Positions 48,650-58,940 of a stretch of 64,000 bases of DNA are shown one piece after another. This DNA comes from Croceicoccus sp. YJ47 (GTDB lineage: Bacteria; Pseudomonadota; Alphaproteobacteria; Sphingomonadales; Sphingomonadaceae), in contig NZ_CP067087.1 of the NCBI RefSeq assembly GCF_016745095.1, positions 1,476,501-1,540,500 on the forward strand. Direction: 5' to 3'. A program made the position numbers and the translations under genes. How positions within the stretch are numbered: position 1 is the first letter of the stretch; each line of letters opens with the position of its first letter. Under the pieces are notes generated by a model that saw nothing but the letters and a program-made list of their open reading frames with translations, searched no databases and was not told where the DNA came from.

Positions 48650-49017
48650 TCGCGCGATTCCGAACGGTGTTGTCGCACGGCTGCGACGAAATTCTCCTTG
48701 CGATATGGGCAATTGCATATAGGAGAGCGGCCATTCCATTGCGGCCCGGAGTGGCCGGACCGCATGGGCCGAACCGTTAGCTTGCGATTCGAAAAAAGGC
48801 GCGACCGGCGCGATGCGGGGGTCGCGTCCGGGCCGACCGGAATGTTTCCGAGGGAAACGGATGCGAACGGTCTGCCTTTCGCGGCCTGGCCCCGATTTCC
48901 ACCGGCGGCAAGCACAGGTTAACCAAGTTCGGCATATTCGCGCCGCTGTGTTAGGGACCGCTCGCCAGTCGCGATTGACGGCGGGCAGGTCGGGGCTTCT
49001 TCGGGAAGGTGTCTCTT
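48650..49017. other. Intergenic region before the type I secretion genes
   Basis: This 368-bp gap has no credible gene. It contains AT-richer patches near 48690-48720 and 48915-48935 that could hold the promoter of the tolC-like gene. I could not place -35 and -10 boxes at proper spacing, and I saw no clear hairpin terminator for the preceding gene. Confidence 0.4.
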
Positions 49018-50409
49018 TTGGTTTCAAAGGCCGAACCGGGTAATCTTTCATGCTCGGTCAGGAAACATGCGTCGCGTTTTGCCGCCGGTCTGAGCCTCGT
49101 GCTCATGGCCGGCGTCGCGCATTCCGCCGCGCAGGATAGCTATGGACCGCCGGTCCCGGCGGACATACGCGCCGCGAACACGGCGATTCCGTTGCCCCCC
49201 GCGGTTCCGGACCGGCTCGGCATGGCCGCGGCGCGCACGGTATCGACCTACCCCGCGATGGACGCGGCGCAGGCGCGGATCCGGGCGAGCGAAGCCGATG
49301 TGGACGCGGCGGAATGGATGCGCTTTCCCAGCGTTTCGGTCGGCGGGCGGATCGGCGACAACGCGCGCAGCGATTTCGCCCCGCAGATACAGATCGAGCA
49401 GCCGATCTGGACCGGCGGGCGCATTACCGGCAATATCGAGCGGGCCGAGGCGGTATCTTCCGTCGCCGATGCACAGCTCGCCGAAACGGCGCAGCAGCTC
49501 GCGATGCAGACGATCAACGCCTATTACGAGGCGGTGCGCGCCACCCGGCGTGAAAAGATCCTCAACGTCAGCCTGGCCGAGCATCAGCGCCTCGTCGAGT
49601 CGATGACGCGCCGGGTCGAGCAGGAAGTCAGCCCGCGCTCCGATCTCGACCTTGCCAAGTCGCGCACGGCGCAGGTCCGTCAGCAGCTCAGCCAGACCAT
49701 CGCGCAGCGGTATACGAGCCTGCAACGGCTCGCGCAGCTCACCGGCAATGCCGATTTCGAGCTGGGGCCGGTCCCCGAATATTCGCGCGCCCTGCACCAC
49801 CCGCCGACCGATTCGGCCGTGCTGCAGGCGCTGACCTGCGATCCGACGCGCCGGCGTTTTGCCGCCGAGGCGCAGGTCGCCGAGGCCGACCGCAAGCTTG
49901 CCAAGGCGCAGATCATGCCGAACGTCGGCGTGCAATTGTCCGATGACGAGATTTACGGCACGCGTTTCGGCGTGGTCGTCACGGCGCAGTCCTCTGGCGG
50001 GCTTGCGCCGTTTGCCGCGGCGCGCGGCGCGGCGCTCCGCGAGCAGGCCAGCCTGTTGCAGATCACCGTGGCCGAACGCGAATTGCGCGAATCCATCCTC
50101 CTCGACGTGGTGGAAAACGCAACGTCCGCCGAAACGATCGAGAGCAGCGACGCCGCCGCGATCGCCACCGACAATGTCACCGAATCCTTCGTGCGGCAGT
50201 TCATCACCGGTAAGCGGACCTGGCTCGACGTGATGAATGCCGTGCGCGAAAGCATGGCGGCGCAGATCACGCTGGTCGATGCGCAGACGACCGCGATGGC
50301 GTCTGCGGCTCGCCTTCTCTTGCGCACATGCGAATGGCGCCCCGACCTCATGGAAACTGGCGACCGCATGGACGCTGCCGATCTCATGGAAGCTGAACGT
50401 GAAGAGTAA
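49018..50409 (+). CDS. TolC-family outer-membrane channel of a type I secretion system
   Basis: A protein of about 463 residues with a signal peptide (AAGLSLVLMAGVAHSAAQD) and the two outer-membrane-efflux halves typical of TolC: long helices (QARIRASEADVDAAEWM, NAYYEAVRATRREKIL, VEQEVSPRSDLDLAKSR) and beta segments (VSVGGRIG, QIQIEQPIWTGGRITG). It should form the trimeric exit channel. TTG 49018 is eight bases from GGGAAGG; GTG 49009 is in frame but too close to that site. The stop overlaps the ABC exporter gene by 11 bp, and the next genes encode its inner-membrane partners. Confidence 0.88.
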   Translation: MVSKAEPGNLSCSVRKHASRFAAGLSLVLMAGVAHSAAQDSYGPPVPADIRAANTAIPLPPAVPDRLGMAAARTVSTYPAMDAAQARIRASEADVDAAEWMRFPSVSVGGRIGDNARSDFAPQIQIEQPIWTGGRITGNIERAEAVSSVADAQLAETAQQLAMQTINAYYEAVRATRREKILNVSLAEHQRLVESMTRRVEQEVSPRSDLDLAKSRTAQVRQQLSQTIAQRYTSLQRLAQLTGNADFELGPVPEYSRALHHPPTDSAVLQALTCDPTRRRFAAEAQVAEADRKLAKAQIMPNVGVQLSDDEIYGTRFGVVVTAQSSGGLAPFAAARGAALREQASLLQITVAERELRESILLDVVENATSAETIESSDAAAIATDNVTESFVRQFITGKRTWLDVMNAVRESMAAQITLVDAQTTAMASAARLLLRTCEWRPDLMETGDRMDAADLMEAEREE

Positions 50410-52735
50410 ACTCAAGCAACTCGTCGAAGTCTTCGCGCGGCAACGTGGGGTGGAATTGCCGCCCGACTGGGACGCGAACACACAGAACGACGAGCCCGAC
50501 GACGCCTCCGCCATCTATGCGCTGGCCGACGCCGCCGGATGGAAGGAGCCGACCGAGGTCACCGGGCGCCCGCGTCCGAACCAGTTTCCGCTGCTCATCC
50601 ATTCGCCGTCGCGCGGGTGGGGCATCGCGGATCAGTGGGAAAGCACCGAGACGCTGCGCGTCTATTCGGGCGAGAAGAACGAACGCTGGGAATATCGCAG
50701 CGGGGTAAGATTCTTCGAACTCGCCCTGCCCCGCTCGGTCGAGCGGGAGGACGTGCCGAGCGCGCTTTCCGTATTCTGGCGCTCGCTTTTGCTGCGCAAG
50801 AAGGTGTTCCTTTCCGCCGTCGTCGCGACGATCGTCATCAATCTCGTCACGCTGGCGACCTCGCTCTACTCGATGCAGGTCTATGACCGCGTCATCCCGC
50901 GCAGTGGTTTTTCCACGCTCTGGGTGCTTACCGCGGGCGTGCTGTTCGCCCTGCTCATCGATTTTGCGCTGCGCACGACGCGCTCGCTCATGATCGAGCG
51001 CGAGGCCGCCAAGATCGACGCCGAGGTGTCGGAATTCTTCTTCGCCCGGGCGCAGGCCGTCCGGCTCGATGCGCGGCCGGGCGGGATCGGCACGATGGCG
51101 GCACAGCTGCGCGGGCTGGAGCAGGTACGCTCGCTGCTCAGCTCGGCCTCGATCTTCCTGATCGCGGATCTGCCCTTTGCGCTGTTCTTCATCTTCGTCA
51201 TCGCCAGCCTTGCCGGCATCGTCGCCATCGTGCCGATCATCAGCTTCCCGGTCGCGCTCATCATGGCGTTCACCATTGCCCGGCTGATCCGCAAGGACAC
51301 GGCCAAGGCGCAGGTCAGCGGCAATCGCAAGAATGGCCTGCTGGTCGAATCGCTCGACGCGGTCGAGACGGTGAAGGCCAATCGCGGCGGGTGGCACATG
51401 CTGTCGCGCTGGAACACGCTCATGGACGAGCTGCAGCTGCATGAAGACCCGGTGAAACGCTGGCAGGCGATCGCCGGCTCGATCTTCAGCAGCCTGCAGC
51501 AGATCGCCTATGTCGCGATCATCGCGCTCGGCGCCATCCAGGTCAGCGATGGCAAGATGACGATGGGCGCGCTGATCGCCTGTGCGATCATTGCCGGCCG
51601 CATCAACGGCCCGCTCGTCAGCCAGCTTCCCAATTTCCTCATTCAGTGGGGCTATGCGCGGTCCTCGCTGTCCATGCTGGACGCGATTCTCGCACTTCCG
51701 CTCGACCGGCCGACGGATATGGAGCCGCTGCGCCCGGAAAAGCTGGACGGGCCGATCCGGCTCGAAAACGTGCAATTCGCCTATGCCGGGGCGCGTTCGG
51801 GGCTGCATATCCCGCATTTGGAGATAAAGCCGGGCGAACGCGTTGCGATCATCGGCGGCATCGGCTCGGGCAAGTCGACGCTGCTGCGCGTGCTTGCCGG
51901 GCTCTATGCGCCGGCGCAGGGTTCGGTGACGATCGGCGGGCTCGACATGCATCACGTCGCGGAGGATATCCTGCGTCAGCATGTCGGATATTTGCCGCAG
52001 GATACGCGCATGCTGAACGGGACGCTGCGCGACAATATCCTGCTCGGCATGGCCAATCCGGGCGATGACGAGCTGATGCGCGTGGCGGGCGATCTCGGCC
52101 TTGCGCCGATGATCGCGGGACACCCGATGGGGCTGGACCTGCCAATTTCCGAAGGCGGGCGCGGGCTTTCGGGGGGGCAGCGCACGCTGTCCGGCCTGAC
52201 CCGGCTGATGCTGGGCAAGCCGCGGGTGATGCTGCTCGACGAGCCGACCTCCAATCTCGACCAGGCGACGGAATCGCGCGTGCTGGGCGCGCTGAAATCC
52301 GGGCTCGACAGTGACAGCACGCTGGTGCTGGTGACGCACCGGCTGCAACTGCTCTCGCTTGTCGACCGCGTGATCGTGGTCACCAACGGACAGGTCCGCC
52401 TCGACGGGCCGCCGAAGGAAGTCCTCGAAAAGCTGCGCGGCAATACGGCCGACAAGAAACAGGTCACGCAGCAAAAGCGTCAGCGCGTCACCGCCACCAA
52501 GACCGGCGAAACGACGGTCGTGCGGCGTTCGCCCGCCGCATCGGGCAATGGCGGCGGCGCGGCCGATACCCCCGCGCCGGATACCCCGGCCCCGGACCGC
52601 GCGGCATCGGGCCACGTCCATGCCGGGCAGAATGCCGGAAACACGGCGCAGGCGGGTGACGACGCATCCGCATCCCCGAAACCGGGCCCATCCGTAAAAC
52701 CCGGCGCAGGCGACACGCCGCCCTCCGGCTACTGA
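50399..52735 (+). CDS. Type I secretion ABC exporter (LapB/HlyB-like) with long low-complexity tail
   Basis: A 778-residue permease-ATPase. Residues 1-115 form a divergent domain in the place of the inactive C39-like domain of LapB/HlyB. The membrane domain (about 125-430) has six hydrophobic segments, and the ATPase has Walker A IGGIGSGKSTLL, Q-loop GYLPQDTRML, signature LSGGQR and Walker B VMLLDEPTS. After the ATPase a tail of roughly 100 residues rich in Pro, Ala, Gly and Thr is unusual for the family. GTG 50399 follows GGAAG and overlaps the tolC-like stop. It powers export of the downstream acidic proteins, by inference. Confidence 0.92.
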   Translation: MKSKLKQLVEVFARQRGVELPPDWDANTQNDEPDDASAIYALADAAGWKEPTEVTGRPRPNQFPLLIHSPSRGWGIADQWESTETLRVYSGEKNERWEYRSGVRFFELALPRSVEREDVPSALSVFWRSLLLRKKVFLSAVVATIVINLVTLATSLYSMQVYDRVIPRSGFSTLWVLTAGVLFALLIDFALRTTRSLMIEREAAKIDAEVSEFFFARAQAVRLDARPGGIGTMAAQLRGLEQVRSLLSSASIFLIADLPFALFFIFVIASLAGIVAIVPIISFPVALIMAFTIARLIRKDTAKAQVSGNRKNGLLVESLDAVETVKANRGGWHMLSRWNTLMDELQLHEDPVKRWQAIAGSIFSSLQQIAYVAIIALGAIQVSDGKMTMGALIACAIIAGRINGPLVSQLPNFLIQWGYARSSLSMLDAILALPLDRPTDMEPLRPEKLDGPIRLENVQFAYAGARSGLHIPHLEIKPGERVAIIGGIGSGKSTLLRVLAGLYAPAQGSVTIGGLDMHHVAEDILRQHVGYLPQDTRMLNGTLRDNILLGMANPGDDELMRVAGDLGLAPMIAGHPMGLDLPISEGGRGLSGGQRTLSGLTRLMLGKPRVMLLDEPTSNLDQATESRVLGALKSGLDSDSTLVLVTHRLQLLSLVDRVIVVTNGQVRLDGPPKEVLEKLRGNTADKKQVTQQKRQRVTATKTGETTVVRRSPAASGNGGGAADTPAPDTPAPDRAASGHVHAGQNAGNTAQAGDDASASPKPGPSVKPGAGDTPPSGY

Positions 52736-52753
52736 GTTTTCTCGAGGATCGAT

Positions 52754-53892
52754 ATGATCAAGCAATCGAATATCATCATCGCCCTCGCGGCGCGGCCGTG
52801 CTGGGCTTTCTTGCGTGGTCGCTCTGGGCCGAGCTCGATCAGATTACCCGCGCGCCGGGCACGGTGGTCCCGTCCGCCCGGACGCAGATCGTGCAGAGTT
52901 CGGAAGGCGGGGTCATCAGCCAGATGCTCGTGCGCGAAGGCGACCGGGTGAAGAAGGGGCAGCTTCTGGTCGTGCTCGACAAGGTGACGCAATCCGCCGC
53001 GGTCGAGGAATCGGTCGCCACGGTCGAGGATCTGCGCACGCAGATGGCCCGGATCGAAGCCGAGCTGTTCGACCGTCCGTTGCGCTTCCCCTCGGACGTG
53101 CGCGATGGCGAGTTCATCGCCAACCAGCGCGCGCTTTATTATCAGCGTCGCCGCGCCCTGCGCGAGGAGCTGAGCAATCTTCAGACCATGCTGCAACTCG
53201 TGCGCGAAGAGCTGGCCATGAACATGCCGCTCGTCGACAGCGGCGACGTCAGCCGGTCCGAGGTCCTGCGCATGCAGCGCACCGTGGCCGATCTGGAGGG
53301 GCAGATCACCAACCGGCGCAACGCCTATCTTCAGGAGCTGCAGACCGAATACGCCCGGATCGAAGGCGAACTCGCCACCGCCGAGCAATCCTTCGCGCAG
53401 CGGCAGCAGGCGTTGCAGCAGACCGAGCTCTACGCACCGACTGACGGCGTGGTCGTGAACGTCAAGTACACCACGATCGGCGCCGTGCTGAAACCCGGCG
53501 ACGAAGTGTTGCAGATCGTGCCGACCGGCGGCGCGCTCATCGTGGAGGCGCGCATTCCGCCCAGCGACATCGCCTTTATCCGCACCGGGCAGCAGGCAGC
53601 GGTCAAGTTCGATGCCTATGACGCATCGATCTACGGTTCGGCGGAGGGCGAGGTGACCTATGTCAGCGCCGACACGCTGACCGAGGAAACGCCCGACGGT
53701 CCGGTCAGCTACTATGCCGCCAATCTGGAGGTCGACACGTCCCGGATGCGGCCGCGCCGTCCCGACGAAGTCATCGCCATTCAACCGGGCATGACCGCGA
53801 CCGCGGAGATTAAAACGGGCGAGACGACGGTATTCCATTATCTCACCAAGCCGATCCTCAAGACGGCGGACGAGGCACTGGAAGAACGATGA
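52754..53892 (+). pseudogene. HlyD-family membrane-fusion protein, frameshifted near its start
   Basis: The periplasmic adaptor of the type I exporter. ATG 52754 follows GAGGA and starts MIKQSNIIIAL, but the frame then turns to nonsense and stops. The rest of the gene is in the +1 frame from about 52789: LGFLAWSLWAELDQITRAPGTVVPS continues the membrane anchor, followed by the biotinyl-lipoyl-like region, coiled coil and TDGVVVNVKYTTIGAVLKPGDEVLQIVPTGG. Removing one base from 52787-52791 rejoins them. Otherwise it has family length (about 378 residues) and order. A true frameshift would block the pathway unless a weak internal GTG at 52798 is used. Confidence 0.88.
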
Positions 53893-53989
53893 TCGACCCG
53901 ATCCCCGGCCTGGCCCATCGCGACGATGCGCCGGCCGGGGGCATTACCTCCACAACGGATCAAGTTCTTTTCCCGCGGGAGAGACGGCG

Positions 53990-54235
53990 ATGACCGCGTG
54001 GCGCGGCGATCTTGCCGCATGTTTCGACAATCTCGACCGGTTGTTCGTATCGCACGCGATGGACGAGGACCGTGCCTTTGAATTGCTCGCACGTTTGCGG
54101 ACAGAAGGAGTCGGCTGGCGGGAGCTGGATGCCGCGGTCCGCGACCTGCTGACCGAGGATGGCTGCACGGTTCAGCACATAGAGTTGCAAATGCGCCACG
54201 TAGAGCCGCGTTTCCGCCCGTGGCTCGCGCCCTGA
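53990..54235 (+). CDS. Small protein of unknown function beside the exporter
   Basis: An 81-residue acidic-to-neutral protein starting at ATG 53990 after GGGAGAG. It is helical (LAACFDNLDRLFVSHAMDEDRAFELL, WRELDAAVRDLLTED) with two cysteines and no signal peptide or membrane segment. It lies between the hlyD-like gene (97 bp) and the acidic substrate genes on the same strand. I do not recognise the family; a role as substrate chaperone or regulator is only a guess. Confidence 0.6.
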   Translation: MTAWRGDLAACFDNLDRLFVSHAMDEDRAFELLARLRTEGVGWRELDAAVRDLLTEDGCTVQHIELQMRHVEPRFRPWLAP

Positions 54236-54563
54236 TCCGGGGCGGGCTGGCCAAAACGTTCCGGAGACGCGACCGAATGCCCGTGACCAAGGGGAACCTC
54301 TTAGGTCATTGAAACGTTAGCATTAACGACCCGCTCGCTACCCCTGCCTCGTCTCGAACAGGCCGCGCGGCGCGTCAGCCCCGGTTAATCCGAAAAAGGA
54401 CTAGATAACAAACATCATACCAGCCACTCGCCCTTGTCCCATTTTGGCAAAAAACAGTTTGGCGGGGCGATTGAAGCTGTTATGCACAGCGCGTCAGGGG
54501 ACCGATTAAAGATGGCCCCCGGTGTTACATCAACTTGAACAAAATTTCAGGGAAAGCGGAATT
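54236..54563. other. AT-richer leader before the acidic protein genes
   Basis: This 328-bp gap has no gene and is clearly less GC-rich than its surroundings from about 54385. A possible weak promoter is TTGGCG (54459-54464) and TATGCA (54481-54486), 16 bases apart, giving a leader of about 75 bases. A TTATGCACA 9-mer (54480-54488), the DnaA-box form, overlaps that -10. The start ATG 54564 follows GGGAAAGCGGAATT. A separate promoter here would allow much higher expression of the acidic proteins than of the exporter genes. Confidence 0.4.
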
Positions 54564-56087
54564 ATGACACGAAGCGAAGCACCGACTGCTGTTGAGCAGG
54601 GCCAGCAGGCCGGTTCGACCGCAACACCCGCGAACGAAGCAGCCACTCCGGAAACCGCAGCGAACACTGCCGAAACCGCGAAGCCGCTGACCGCCGCCGA
54701 ACTCGCCGCGCTCGCCGCCGCCGCTTCGGAAGACGCCGTTCCGCAGGTTGAGTCGGAAGAAGCTCCCGTCGAAATGGCCGACGCCGCCCAGGCTCAGGCG
54801 AAGGCGCAGGCCGTGGTCGACGAGGACGAGAAGGAAGACGAAGACGACGCCGACGCGCAGGACGCACCCGTCGATCTCGCAATGGGTTCGGAAGCTGCTG
54901 TTTTCGAAGCGATTGCTGCGGCTGACGATGCACGCGCTGCACCGGGCGACGAAGGCGAGGAAGCTTCCGCTCTCGGTGGCGATTCGAATGGCGCGCCGAT
55001 CCTGGCCGTTGCTGCCGTTGCGGCTGCCGGTCTCGGCCTTTATGCCGTCCTCGACGACAACGACGATGACATCGACCTTCCCGAGCCCGAGCCCGAGAAT
55101 GTTGCTCCCGTCTTCACGTCGGGCACCGATGTCGATTTCGCCGAGAACACTGACGCTGGCGAAGTGGTCTATACCGCGACCGCAACCGACGCCGACGGCG
55201 ATGACATCACCTACAGCATCGATGCCGACAGCGCCGATTTCGACGCCTTCACCATCGATCCCGACACCGGCGAAGTTCGCTTCGTGGCCTCGCCCGACTT
55301 CGAGATGCAGGACAGCTACACGCTGACCGTCATCGCGACCGACTCGGAAGGCAATTCGGTTTCGCAGGACGTGGACATCGCGATCACCGACGTAGTCGAG
55401 AACACCGCGCCGACGTTCGCCAATGGTGACGACGTCACCGTCGCCATCGACGAGAATTCCGACGTCGCGACCGTCGTCTATGATGCCAATGCGGTCGACG
55501 CCGAAGGCGATGCCATCACCTACAGCATCGAAGACGGCGACGATTCCGACGCCTTCACGATCGATGCGGACGATGGCGAAGTTCGCTTCGTGGCCTCGCC
55601 CGACTTCGAGATGCAGGACAGCTACACCATCACGGTGACCGCGACCGACGCCGAAGGCAACATGACGAGCCAGGACGTCACGATCGACGTGAACGACCTC
55701 GACGATGCCATCACCACGGTCAATCTAGATGCGGTGGATACGGACAACAATCCGAACACGCCGAACCTGATCGACTCGGGTGACATGGACTACCTGCTGA
55801 CCGACGATGCCGAAGTCGCCAGCTACACGATCATCCGCAACTTCGAAGAAGGCGACATGATCGAATTCTCGAACACGGACAGCGTCAGCTTCTCGACCGG
55901 TCCGGACGATGCGAACGATCTTCAGATCATCTTCAACAACAACGGCACGGTCAGCGAGATCATTCTCGACGACGTTCTGGGTGACGATGCTGGTCTGATC
56001 TTCAACGAGGCAACTGCCGAAGCCGCTGTCGGCTTCGACTTCTTCTCCTATGCTGACGTGACTGTCGCTGCGGACACCATCGCTTAA
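54564..56087 (+). CDS. Acidic cadherin-repeat protein, candidate type I secretion substrate
   Basis: A 507-residue protein with no cysteine and, by my count, only eight Lys/Arg. Residues 1-150 are low-complexity Ala/Glu/Asp; then a hydrophobic stretch (APILAVAAVAAAGLGLYAVL) and a run of acidic residues. Two cadherin-like repeats follow (about 185-285 and 290-390) with DADGDD and DVNDLDD motifs that suggest calcium binding; they share a 53-bp perfect DNA repeat. The last 110 residues are beta-rich (DYLLTDDAEVASYTII, GDMIEFSN), resembling a C-terminal secretion region. No classic RTX nonapeptides or N-terminal signal peptide are seen, which fits type I export. The second acidic gene follows 27 bp downstream. 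Confidence 0.8.
   Translation: MTRSEAPTAVEQGQQAGSTATPANEAATPETAANTAETAKPLTAAELAALAAAASEDAVPQVESEEAPVEMADAAQAQAKAQAVVDEDEKEDEDDADAQDAPVDLAMGSEAAVFEAIAAADDARAAPGDEGEEASALGGDSNGAPILAVAAVAAAGLGLYAVLDDNDDDIDLPEPEPENVAPVFTSGTDVDFAENTDAGEVVYTATATDADGDDITYSIDADSADFDAFTIDPDTGEVRFVASPDFEMQDSYTLTVIATDSEGNSVSQDVDIAITDVVENTAPTFANGDDVTVAIDENSDVATVVYDANAVDAEGDAITYSIEDGDDSDAFTIDADDGEVRFVASPDFEMQDSYTITVTATDAEGNMTSQDVTIDVNDLDDAITTVNLDAVDTDNNPNTPNLIDSGDMDYLLTDDAEVASYTIIRNFEEGDMIEFSNTDSVSFSTGPDDANDLQIIFNNNGTVSEIILDDVLGDDAGLIFNEATAEAAVGFDFFSYADVTVAADTIA
55269..55321 (+). repeat. 53-bp perfect direct repeat, copy 1
   Basis: Starts GGCGAAGTTCGCTTCGTGG and encodes GEVRFVASPDFEMQDSYT inside the first cadherin-like repeat. 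It is identical at every base to copy 2, 306 bp downstream, although the flanking codons differ. Confidence 0.93.
55575..55627 (+). repeat. 53-bp perfect direct repeat, copy 2
   Basis: The identical partner of copy 1 in the second cadherin-like repeat. Identity at silent positions points to recent duplication or gene conversion rather than selection on protein sequence alone. Confidence 0.93.
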
Positions 56088-56114
56088 TTTCATTAGACAC
56101 AAGAGAGATAAAAA

Positions 56115-57671
56115 ATGGCACGTGTAATTCTTGAAGGTATGGGCGACGCCGTGACCGTTGGCGGTCCCGACGTTGACGTAATCGGCACCAACAACGACGA
56201 AACCGTCACCATCGTCAGCGGCAACGTCACCCTCGACGCGTCGTTCGCCAACGGCGGCGACACCATCGAACTCGCCGGCGAAGCCGAGCAGTACTCCGCA
56301 GTCCTCAGCGGCTCGCGCGTCATCATCACGAACATCGCTTCGGGCGCTACCGTCAGCATTCCTGTCGGCACCGAAGGCCTGACCGTTGAATTCGGCGGTG
56401 ACGATGCACGCGTTCTGATGATCGAAGACGGCGCCGTGATGTTTGGCGGCACCGCGATCACCACGACCGAAGCTACGCTCGAAGCGGGTGACGACGATGC
56501 CAGCGCTCTGACCGCTGCGCTTCAGCAGCTGCAGGGTGCGCAGGCCGCGCTCGACGCGTTCCTCGACAGCCAGCCGGCAAACCTCGATACCGAAGCCGAA
56601 ATCGACGCGAATCTCCAGAACCTCTCGGATGAGCTCGACACCTATCCGACGGCTGCTCAGGTTGCCGCTTCGGTGACCTCGGCGCAGGCCGATGTCGATG
56701 CGGTCGAAGAAGAGATCGCCGAGATCGAGGGTCTTGCTGCGGCGATTGCCAAGGCAGAAGCTCTCGCGGAAGAAGTTGAGGAACTCGACGCCGCTCGTGA
56801 GCTGGCTCAGGCCGAAGAGCTGTCGGCTATCGCGTTCTACAATTCGATCAATGACGAAGCCATCAACGTCCAGTCGAACGGCACTGCCACGCTGGCGGAC
56901 GGCACGCCCTTGATCATCCTGAACGCCGAGGAAGAGCTCGTTCTCAACCCCGAGCTGACCACCGATCGTGGCGACACTCAGCTGCTGGCCGCAGTGCGCA
57001 CCTCGGTTGAAGCCGAAGGCGACTACTTCGATGCGCTGGGCGAACTGACTGCGGCGCAGGAAGCCGTCGAAGCCCTCGATCCCGAGAACCTCTATGGCAC
57101 GCTGCAGGCGCGTCAGGAAACGCTCGAGAACGCTGAAAATCTGCAGGACGCACGCGCTGAGCTCGCTCAGGACGTTGCCGATGCGCAGGATCTGGCCGAT
57201 ACGCTCGACGATCTGCAGGATGACGTTTCCGACGCCATCGATGCCATCGAAGATCTGGGCTTCGAAGCTCCGCAGACCGTTGACGACATGTCGTTGACCA
57301 GCGGCACCGCAGAGAACGACATCTTCGTTCTGGCAACCGGTGACGGCACGGGTTCGGCAACCATCGACGATTTCGGTGCGGAAGGCGATGACGTTCTGTT
57401 CATCGGCGGCAACACCTACACGGTCGTTAACATCGATGCGGACGTCGATGTCTCCAACACCGATGTCGGCAATGTCGGCGTGCTCGAAGTCTTCGTCCAG
57501 CAGGACGGCGACAACACGATCATGTACTTCGAAGACGAAACCTTCTCGGGTTCGGCCTCGAACAACAGCTTCCAGGGCTTCACCCTGACGCTGAACGACG
57601 TTGATGCATCGAACGTTTCTTTCGACAGCACGGGTTACATCTCGCTCGACGACTCGGCGATGATGGCCTGA
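56115..57671 (+). CDS. Acidic beta/coiled-coil/beta protein, candidate surface-layer or matrix subunit
   Basis: A 518-residue protein with no cysteine, histidine or tryptophan and about nine Lys/Arg. Residues 1-115 are Gly/Val/Thr-rich beta strands; about 125-370 are helical heptad-like segments rich in Ala, Glu, Leu and Asp (AEALAEEVEELDAARELAQAE); the last 130 residues return to beta structure with ENDIFVLATGDGTGSATIDDF and GDDVLFIGG, a pattern seen at the C-terminus of hemolysin-type secreted proteins. No signal peptide. Start ATG 56115 follows AAGAGAG, 27 bp after the cadherin gene. Likely exported by the upstream type I system; the structural role is inference. I know no named family for it. 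Confidence 0.78.
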   Translation: MARVILEGMGDAVTVGGPDVDVIGTNNDETVTIVSGNVTLDASFANGGDTIELAGEAEQYSAVLSGSRVIITNIASGATVSIPVGTEGLTVEFGGDDARVLMIEDGAVMFGGTAITTTEATLEAGDDDASALTAALQQLQGAQAALDAFLDSQPANLDTEAEIDANLQNLSDELDTYPTAAQVAASVTSAQADVDAVEEEIAEIEGLAAAIAKAEALAEEVEELDAARELAQAEELSAIAFYNSINDEAINVQSNGTATLADGTPLIILNAEEELVLNPELTTDRGDTQLLAAVRTSVEAEGDYFDALGELTAAQEAVEALDPENLYGTLQARQETLENAENLQDARAELAQDVADAQDLADTLDDLQDDVSDAIDAIEDLGFEAPQTVDDMSLTSGTAENDIFVLATGDGTGSATIDDFGAEGDDVLFIGGNTYTVVNIDADVDVSNTDVGNVGVLEVFVQQDGDNTIMYFEDETFSGSASNNSFQGFTLTLNDVDASNVSFDSTGYISLDDSAMMA

Positions 57672-57710
57672 TCCATCGACACGGATGCTTCGGCATCCTG
57701 TCGCAAAAGA

Positions 57711-57739
57711 CCCCCGGTCCTGTTGGGCCGGGGGTTTTT
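57711..57739 (+). terminator. Strong terminator after the acidic protein genes
   Basis: CCCCCGG pairs with CCGGGGG around a short loop and is followed by TTTTT. It ends the secretion-system region and fits a highly expressed transcript. Confidence 0.93.
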
Positions 57740-57896
57740 CGTGCGCACTTCACGCTCGGTCATGTGCATCGGTTCATCCTGCATACCGTTTCAACCCCGT
57801 AGATCGTTTGACTCCAGCGCAGCAGAGTGAAATTGCGAACGAGTGCAAACAAGCCCAACCCTATTCAGGCCCCTTTGGCAGCGCCTTCCCGCACAG

Positions 57897-58940
57897 ATGT
57901 TGAAGCCTCGCCATGCATTTGCTGCGCTCCTCGCGGTGTGCATCCTGCTCGGTATCGCAGGCGACCTCACTCGCCGCCAACTTCTGAATGGTGAGGCCGA
58001 CTCCGCATCGCTTGCCTTATCGGAAGAAACGAGCCGAGGGCCGGTCAAGCTCGAAGAATTGACCGCGGACAAGATACGGCCCCTCGTCCCCGAAGATGCC
58101 CGCGCCATCAATTCACAGCAGCCGATTGCGAACGAGGCCGTCACCCCTTCGCGTGCATTCAAGCCAATGTTCGCCGCCGCGTCGCAGCGCGCCCGTGCGG
58201 TCGATTGCCTGGCGACGGCGATCTATTACGAGGCCGGAATGGAAGGCGCCGATGGCCAGCGCGGCGTGGCGCAGGTCGTCCTCAACCGCGTCCGCCACAA
58301 GTCCTATCCCAACAGCGTGTGTGGCGTCGTATTTCAGGGGGCGGAACGGCGCACAGGGTGTCAGTTCACCTTTACCTGCGACGGCTCGCTTGCGCGCGCG
58401 CCTGCACCCCGCCGCCTCGCGCAGGCGCGCAAAATTGCGGAGGATGCCCTTGCGGGATCGGTCTATGCTCCGGTGGGTCTCTCGACGCATTATCATGCGG
58501 ATTATGTCGTTCCATACTGGAGCCCGAGCCTGTTGAAGACCGCGGTGGTCGGCACGCATATCTTCTACCGCTCGCCCGGTCTGGCAGGGCGCCCGTCCGC
58601 CTTCGCCGAACGCTACGCCGGGGAGGACGCTGCCCGCCCGGAACCAACGCCGGCCCCGGATCCTGTGGCGGACGTGCCTCAGCGTCTGGCGGCCAACCCC
58701 GCGCTTGCCGCCGTGCCGGTCGCGCCGGAGGACAAGGCCGCCGAGATCGACCGCTTCGCGATCCTGGACTATAGGGAAACGGGCGAGCCGGCGCCCAGCG
58801 CGATCGATCGCCGAATTGCGGCGTCGGTCCGGTCCGCCGCCGGTGCGTCCGCGCCTATGTCGAAAGGAGAGCCGCCGTCTGGAATACGACCAGCCGGACC
58901 CTCCACCACGCGATCACGGCCGCAGATCGTTCTCGATTGA
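57897..58940 (+). CDS. Cell-wall hydrolase, SleB family
   Basis: A protein of about 347 residues. An N-terminal membrane segment (AFAALLAVCILLGIAGDL) is followed by a linker and a SleB/hydrolase-2 domain (about 100-225): VDCLATAIYYEAGMEGADGQRGVAQVVLNRV with the catalytic-type Glu, and GCQFTFTCDG. The Pro/Ala-rich C-terminal part is low complexity. Relatives hydrolyse peptidoglycan as spore or cell-wall lytic enzymes. ATG 57897 was preferred to GTG 57843; neither has a clear ribosome site. Confidence 0.85.
   Translation: MLKPRHAFAALLAVCILLGIAGDLTRRQLLNGEADSASLALSEETSRGPVKLEELTADKIRPLVPEDARAINSQQPIANEAVTPSRAFKPMFAAASQRARAVDCLATAIYYEAGMEGADGQRGVAQVVLNRVRHKSYPNSVCGVVFQGAERRTGCQFTFTCDGSLARAPAPRRLAQARKIAEDALAGSVYAPVGLSTHYHADYVVPYWSPSLLKTAVVGTHIFYRSPGLAGRPSAFAERYAGEDAARPEPTPAPDPVADVPQRLAANPALAAVPVAPEDKAAEIDRFAILDYRETGEPAPSAIDRRIAASVRSAAGASAPMSKGEPPSGIRPAGPSTTRSRPQIVLD

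Follow-up and report, generated by a model that had tools for sequence, protein, structure and literature searches.

Proteins that reach the bacterial surface through a type I secretion system (T1SS) are the closest described relatives of the system treated here. RsaA, the S-layer protein of the alphaproteobacterium Caulobacter, is a T1SS substrate without a signal peptide and folds as a beta-roll. In the gammaproteobacterium Methylotuvimicrobium alcaliphilum, the accessible part of the report on the hauberk MEALZ_0971/0972 describes an S-layer-type, RsaA-related protein and a small partner, encoded in one operon with T1SS genes adjoining (PMC11784148). The available excerpts likewise describe Caulobacter Cdz as a system of two proteins with glycine-zipper motifs, which a T1SS exports and which remain at the surface (PMC5380434), the Rap proteins of Rhizobium as substrates of the PrsDE T1SS, which carry cadherin-like domains and act in the biofilm matrix (PMC9298526), and two large adhesins of Desulfovibrio which go with one Lap-like system (PMC13090378). 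Here, we focus on a locus of Croceicoccus sp. YJ47 at positions 49,009-57,743 (+ strand) of the window, by which we mean the whole 64,000-nucleotide stretch of DNA that was analysed (positions 1,476,501-1,540,500 of a single 3.35-Mb contig). In this locus, genes for a TolC-type channel, an ABC exporter and an HlyD-type adaptor are followed by an open reading frame (ORF) of 81 residues, the genes of two acidic proteins, here called A and B, and a terminator.

That this operon exports A and B as a pair via its T1SS is well supported by genomics and very probable. A function of the pair as a surface coat or adhesin is likely by a narrower measure, the pointers to it being indirect. Our overall explanation, which has about an even chance of being right, is that A and B are two exported partner proteins which remain at the cell surface or close to it and form a lineage-specific two-partner system, with A as a calcium-dependent stalk and B as a variable coat or adhesive subunit. 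The division of labour between an anchor (A) and a subunit (B) is proposed tentatively.

Conservation and composition of the A-B pair

The two genes are linked to each other and to the exporter genes. In an even sample of 396 genomes from the order Sphingomonadales, a profile of the A C-terminal domain matches 8, all of which lie within the 9 genomes matched by a B profile built from three species. In each of these 8 genomes a B-type ORF comes immediately after A, and together with two sister species from a search of the genus (G159 and G150) this order is found in 10/10 loci, the window included. Searches with the window proteins (tblastn) located all three T1SS genes beside A and B in each of the nine other loci, at 38-99% identity for TolC, 53-99% for the ABC exporter and 55-99% for HlyD, and A and B thus stand beside a complete TolC/ABC/HlyD set, as expected of T1SS substrates, in all 10 loci. 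In G328 the T1SS genes are divergent from A and B, and in G455 B and TolC are separated by one other gene. The adjacent B of G314 was missed by the B profile and found by reading the locus, where the B N-domain profile matches at 5.3e-26, and the ninth genome of the B profile (G358) has B-type N-domains only, in an ORF of ~3200 residues, with no match to A. The original prediction of type I export and of a functional pair is borne out by this comparison across Sphingomonadales, which finds the pair kept in all 8 genomes that hold the A domain. It had also expected relatives to lie near type I systems and to lack signal peptides, which agrees with the finding that no A-B pair turned up away from a T1SS and that, by hydropathy, no relative has a signal-like start; it is to be qualified in that the B N-domain also occurs by itself elsewhere (see below).

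Within the genus, an orthologous exporter is present in 3/14 genomes, including that of YJ47, the two others being 99% and 97% identical. In the other 11 genomes the exporter is 32-38% identical and adjoins a gene homologous to that of the PF07486 cell-wall hydrolase. The exporter and the A-B pair therefore travel together, as exporters linked to the pair are 53-99% identical and the hydrolase-linked exporters of pair-less sister species only 32-38%. Ten of these sister loci could be read at length, and each holds a long, acidic, Cys-free ORF (950-2300 residues in the visible part, several running off the edge of the locus); the eleventh (G158) comprises 4 kb only. Profiles of the A and B domains had no match in the 11 sister-species loci, including this short one.

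In class-level samples, which are thin and were screened with a first-look filter that can miss weak matches, the A C-domain and the B N-domain were found in the YJ47 genome only among 385 genomes, and the B C-domain in this genome only among 240. When 84,980 species genomes were scanned with close B sequences, four loci were returned, namely those of Croceicoccus hydrothermalis JLT1, an uncultured Croceicoccus, Erythrobacteraceae bacterium Alg239-R51 and Devosia crocina. A family-level search with B alone matched 2/149 genomes, that of YJ47 and G099, the latter sharing the N-domain only. None of 113 pattern matches of B in viral contigs is a relative, and among plasmids B matched only one Sphingobium Calx-beta protein, at 17% coverage.

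Both proteins have an extreme amino acid composition. A (54564-56087, 507 residues) contains 123 Asp and Glu, 8 Lys and Arg and no Cys, and B (56115-57671, 518 residues) contains 108, 9 and none, respectively. Their Lys plus Arg fractions of 1.7% each are the two lowest in a crude set of 48 window ORFs, in which the next lowest is 6.9%, and the near absence of Lys and Arg and the lack of Cys are thus as foreseen from the sequence. Judged by hydropathy alone, neither protein has a signal-peptide-like start (the best 19-mer in the first 43 residues reaches -0.45 in A and 0.81 in B, and at most 1.48 in relatives). The predicted absence of a signal peptide therefore stands, with the correction that A has a 19-residue hydrophobic segment further inside, at residues 145-163. 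Neither window protein matches the RTX nonapeptide repeats (PF00353), on which ground RTX membership was rejected for both; such repeats are present in the B proteins of G427 and G328.

Domain architecture and variation between species

Protein A consists of an N-terminal tail, the hydrophobic segment, two cadherin repeats and a family-specific C-terminal domain. The hydrophobic segment (54996-55052), which is Gly/Ala-rich and is followed by an Asp-rich stretch, is proposed to be a plug or anchor and is a candidate for stopping complete export. A 19-mer with a mean hydropathy of at least 2.03, starting at residue 106-202, is present in 9/9 A proteins with an intact N-terminus (that of G409 is cut by the contig end and was left out), and none of 13 B-type proteins has a 19-mer above 1.76. 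The two cadherin repeats (55131-55685), already recognised in the original prediction, match Pfam Cadherin (PF00028) in two stretches at 7.8e-21, with 74.7 bits against a cut-off of 28.8, and would form a calcium-binding stalk. Their best match among PDB cadherins is CELSR1 (1.1e-32), cadherin-23 following at 2.3e-17, and a Foldseek search with the model of A also returned cadherins (4.8e-14). Cadherin or cadherin-like repeats occur, in one to five copies, in all four A proteins scanned (those of the window, G392 and G314 and part of that of G409), and A proteins range from 422 to 1283 residues across loci. The C-terminal domain (55710-56084; ~120 residues, aligned from 9 loci) defines the A family, is present in tandem in G328, G314 and G455, and likely holds the T1SS signal. 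Its profile had no PDB match below 0.001, the best being a designed Ig protein at 0.007.

In protein B, two beta domains enclose a predicted helical arm. The N-terminal beta domain (56115-56474), which defines B-type proteins in an alignment of 12, was modelled by AlphaFold at a predicted local distance difference test score (pLDDT) of 66-87. The arm (56493-57254), modelled mostly at pLDDT 80-97, is a predicted hairpin of helices 127-246 and 285-380 with a beta tip at residues 250-277, an arrangement that would bring the N- and C-domains together, opposite the tip. The C-terminal beta domain (57285-57668), which likely holds the T1SS signal of B, is delimited by alignment and by 36% identity to a Devosia crocina protein; it is common to the Croceicoccus and Alg239-R51 proteins and this Devosia protein of 637 residues, which has an N-terminal DUF4214. 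The Devosia protein also contains a coiled coil, and ABC and HlyD homologues at 27-28% identity lie no more than ~6 kb from its gene (L111:8645-10555), possibly linking DUF4214 proteins to T1SS surface proteins.

The claim that B belongs to no named family held in every collection searched. B matches no Pfam family and no PDB sequence, its only NCBIfam matches are to coiled coils below cut-off (0.0016 and 0.056), and PHROGs returned a single weak match to A (0.0024) and none to B. Profiles of the B N-domain and C-domain had no PDB match below 0.001. Foldseek found nothing for B at E < 1e-3; its best matches were RTX proteins at ~1e-2, secreted lipases among them, next to generic coiled coils, and are taken as no more than a hint at a T1SS-type beta fold. 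The analysis defines three domains that match no sequence in Pfam, NCBIfam or the PDB and can be used as markers. Paired B proteins vary from 518 to 1819 residues, with differing middles and C-termini, and Pfam scans of four longer ones found RTX and Calx-beta in G427_B, Ig/cadherin-like domains and RTX in G328_B1, Calx-beta below cut-off in G456_B and nothing in G455_B. The B N-domain alone is also found elsewhere, for example near the C-terminus of serralysin-type and RTX proteins of G099, G314 and G427 (L036-L039, L103, L104), in several of them in more than one copy, and hence is a general, mobile module of secreted proteins, without a Pfam family, rather than proof of a coat. In G328 (L097:5195-12639), one A is followed by three tandem B-type ORFs of 1546, 230 and 576 residues, a local expansion of B, and an orphan B-type ORF of 913 residues lies elsewhere in that genome (L098).

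Comparison with the two sister species shows that the pair varies as a mosaic. In comparison with G159 and G150, identity is 90-99.6% for seven neighbouring proteins of the window and 76-77% for the hydrolase. B is only 51% (G159) and 61% (G150) identical, set against 97-99% for the exporter of the same species. By segment, identities to G159 and G150, respectively, are 81 and 62% for the B N-domain, 37 and 47% for the arm, and 50 and 88% for the C-domain. The first 190 residues of A are 96-97% identical, and its C-domain is 91% identical in G159 and 46% in G150. At the DNA level, bins of 150 nucleotides fall from 85-97% identity in the first half of A to 48-70% in the B arm, and the transitions form sharp reciprocal blocks: the window sides with G159 from the 3' half of A into the 5' part of B, with G150 in the 3' part of B, and with neither of them in the arm. 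The A C-domain and the B N-domain change together, a pattern that would fit either one recombination tract or the co-adaptation of touching surfaces.

Exporter genes and neighbouring features

The complete gene set that the original prediction had listed, from the T1SS genes over the small protein and the tandem acidic genes to a strong terminator, was recovered in place by ORF calling, Pfam and NCBIfam matches and RNA folding. The TolC-type outer-membrane channel of the T1SS (49009-50409) matches Pfam OEP at 3.3e-31 and, below cut-off, TIGR01844 at 3.9e-27. The ABC permease/ATPase gene (50399-52735), whose GTG start at 50399 was inferred from the G392 orthologue, encodes a protein of LapB/LssB type. 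It matches the LssB-type model TIGR03375 at 5.1e-189 with 629.9 bits, under the cut-off of 693.1, and only over profile positions 138-694, the first 137 being unmatched. The G392 orthologue follows this pattern with 619.1 bits, and a sister-species exporter matches from position 1 and passes with 694.7. The exporter is a divergent LssB/LapB branch whose N-terminal ~120 residues the model does not match. In a search of the YJ47 genome with a T1SS ABC model, the locus exporter ranks first with 319 bits, the next protein reaching 219.5 and none exceeding the family cut-off; because of this rank, we take it as the main T1SS of the genome. Elsewhere in the genome, a serralysin-type RTX metalloprotease (L041:7703-9232; Peptidase_M10_C 9.6e-18) has the highest codon adaptation of 63 background ORFs and is probably another client of the same T1SS.

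The HlyD-type adaptor (52754-53892) matches TIGR01843 above cut-off at 7.6e-91. In this assembly its start and its main frame differ in frame (52754-52800 in the three-frame view), the main frame being open from 52798. Intact orthologues are present in G159, G150 and G392. A true loss of HlyD was considered and rejected, since the gene of EF-G (L129:2569-4662, recognised by eye) is likewise interrupted, by an in-frame stop after codon 74. The latter suggests sequencing errors in this genome, and the HlyD break is therefore probably an assembly error.

The 81-residue ORF (53990-54235) has neither a Pfam nor a PHROGs match and no assigned function. It occupies the same position in G159, G150 and G392 at 97.5%, 96.3% and 70.9% identity, was not found in the remaining 6 A-B loci searched, and possibly encodes a substrate-specific helper. 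After B, an intrinsic terminator (~57703-57743) folds at -33.5 kcal/mol (z -5.6), with 0/200 shuffles equally good; the pattern scan alone was not above chance, with 7 found and 7.4 expected. The cell-wall hydrolase gene (57843-58940; PF07486 1.2e-25) directly follows. A PF07486-type hydrolase lies beside the T1SS locus in 14/14 genus genomes, after B in the three A-B species and adjoining the ABC gene in the remaining 11 (L056-L066), which suggests a link between the opening of peptidoglycan and T1SS assembly.

Proposed mode of action, rival explanations and known systems

T1SS substrates are taken C-terminus first, and A and B would each pass in this manner through the ABC-HlyD-TolC channel and fold outside the cell upon calcium binding. 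A would not be fully released, the hydrophobic segment and the unstructured tail holding it in the channel or membrane, so that the cadherin stalk, stiffened by calcium, and the C-terminal domain would be displayed at the cell surface. B, leaving by the same channel, would dock on the A C-terminal domain, probably via its conserved N-terminal domain, and form a coat or adhesive fringe, with the helical arm and tip pointing outward and diversified by recombination. The release mechanism of LapA is not expected here, since the LapG family (PF06035) has 0 matches in the YJ47 genome, the control being positive in Caulobacter. In its most specific form, which we regard as doubtful, this would be a previously undescribed, sphingomonad-specific system in which a T1SS cadherin stalk is self-anchored by a hydrophobic plug without LapG control and receives a docking coat partner, whose ends are kept for docking and export and whose arm and tip are exchanged from species to species, pressure from phages or grazers being the most likely cause.

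The original prediction of a surface layer, adhesin or matrix finds support that is indirect, from the hypervariability of B, the codon usage of both proteins and one relative of B that resembles RsaA. Codon adaptation, calculated against 17 translation genes of the YJ47 genome recognised by eye, is 0.726 for B and 0.705 for A, with 3/63 background ORFs scoring above B and 5/63 above A (background mean 0.563, sd 0.102; leave-one-out mean of the translation genes 0.733). These values fit abundant proteins, and the signal is modest. The last ~316 residues of G456_B match the RsaA chains 5n97 and 6p5t at 7e-7, these being its only PDB matches.

Several observations weigh against the reading of A and B as a stalk and its variable coat subunit. 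The codon test relies on a crude background of 63 ORFs in which A and B are included. The match of G456_B to RsaA carries a large composition bias (48 bits), window B matches no RsaA or other S-layer protein among PDB sequences, G427_B matches RTX proteins and Calx-beta and not RsaA, and a profile of five B C-termini retrieves only weak RTX matches from the PDB, RsaA not being found. The variable stretch extends beyond B and takes in the 5' end of the hydrolase gene, and variability is therefore not confined to B. Furthermore, the B N-domain is present in proteins without a neighbouring A. AlphaFold modelling, proposed as a check of both proteins, served well for the B arm and fairly for the A repeats and parts of the A C-domain; the model of A has a mean pLDDT of only 59.7, the B C-domain lies mostly below 65, and the models rest on 4-5 sequences.

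Among the rival explanations, the one that survives best, though we hold it to be the less probable course, is that A and B are ordinary T1SS biofilm or matrix adhesins, acting independently as calcium-dependent proteins like the cadherin-domain Rap or Bap/LapA-type proteins and merely sharing an exporter. The Rap proteins, with cadherin-like domains and PrsDE export, and the two Desulfovibrio adhesins of one Lap-like system are precedents for it, as are the 11 sister species with another T1SS exporter by the hydrolase, 10 of them with the long acidic Cys-free ORF. The strict order of A then B in all ten loci argues for a joint function instead, the domains of both families were not found in those sister loci, and the A proteins are small for adhesins.

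Alternatively, B could form a genuine crystalline S-layer in the manner of RsaA, with A as a minor accessory protein. The RsaA-like C-terminus of G456_B, the codon bias of B and A and the methanotroph precedent of MEALZ_0971/0972 point in this direction. We nevertheless consider it improbable, as window B does not match RsaA, paired B proteins differ more than threefold in length as well as in their middles and C-termini, and the predicted helical hairpin is unlike the RsaA beta-roll. A Cdz-like, surface-retained contact-dependent antibacterial system of two proteins, with the 81-residue protein as immunity factor, would agree with the Gly/Ala-rich hydrophobic segment of A and the polymorphism of B and is very improbable, since A and B by far exceed CdzC (86 residues) and CdzD (84 residues), and the 81-residue protein has no membrane span by eye and CdzI three predicted ones according to the accessible text (PMC5380434). 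The 81-residue ORF was also not found in 6/10 loci, and in the sister species, where B diverges, it stays 96-97% conserved, the reverse of what a polymorphic toxin/immunity pair would show. The candidate of a polymorphic toxin and its immunity protein was rejected on this last ground, no dedicated search for immunity genes having been made.

If the two-partner explanation holds, this alphaproteobacterial surface system would have a single T1SS that exports a tether and a variable coat subunit of its own. This would bear on what keeps T1SS substrates attached to a cell that lacks LapG-type control, and on the surface covering of sphingomonads, for which the titles and abstract starts of the open-licence PMC literature, among the matches listed, name no S-layer or paired T1SS surface protein.

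With LapA/Bap adhesins and their LapB-type exporters, the locus shares the LapB/LssB-type ABC protein, cadherin/Ig-like extender repeats and an N-terminal part that may retain the protein. It differs in having no LapG match in the genome, a hydrophobic segment in place of a recognised retention module, short proteins, a constant partner B and an ABC protein under the LssB cut-off; LapA membership was rejected on the exporter score and the LapG result. For the Rap proteins, alike in bringing cadherin-like domains to T1SS substrates, we know of no paired B-type partner. With the RsaA system, the locus has in common the signal-less T1SS substrate and the similarity of one relative of B to the RsaA C-terminal region, and it differs from it by two partners in all ten loci as opposed to one protein, and by a window B without RTX repeats or RsaA similarity and with a predicted helical arm. 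The hauberk pair, which resembles it in joining an S-layer-type and a second protein, belongs to Gammaproteobacteria and comprises an RsaA-related protein with a small partner, no cadherin anchor being described in the accessible part of the report (PMC11784148). Cdz, which likewise keeps two T1SS-exported proteins at the surface, consists in its available description of glycine-zipper toxins and an immunity protein (PMC5380434). As far as RsaA, the hauberk pair, LapA/Bap, BapP (PMC12153261), the Desulfovibrio adhesins, Cdz and Rap are described in the accessible sources, it is the combination of a cadherin partner that carries a hydrophobic segment with a B-type partner which sets the Croceicoccus locus apart from its nearest relatives.

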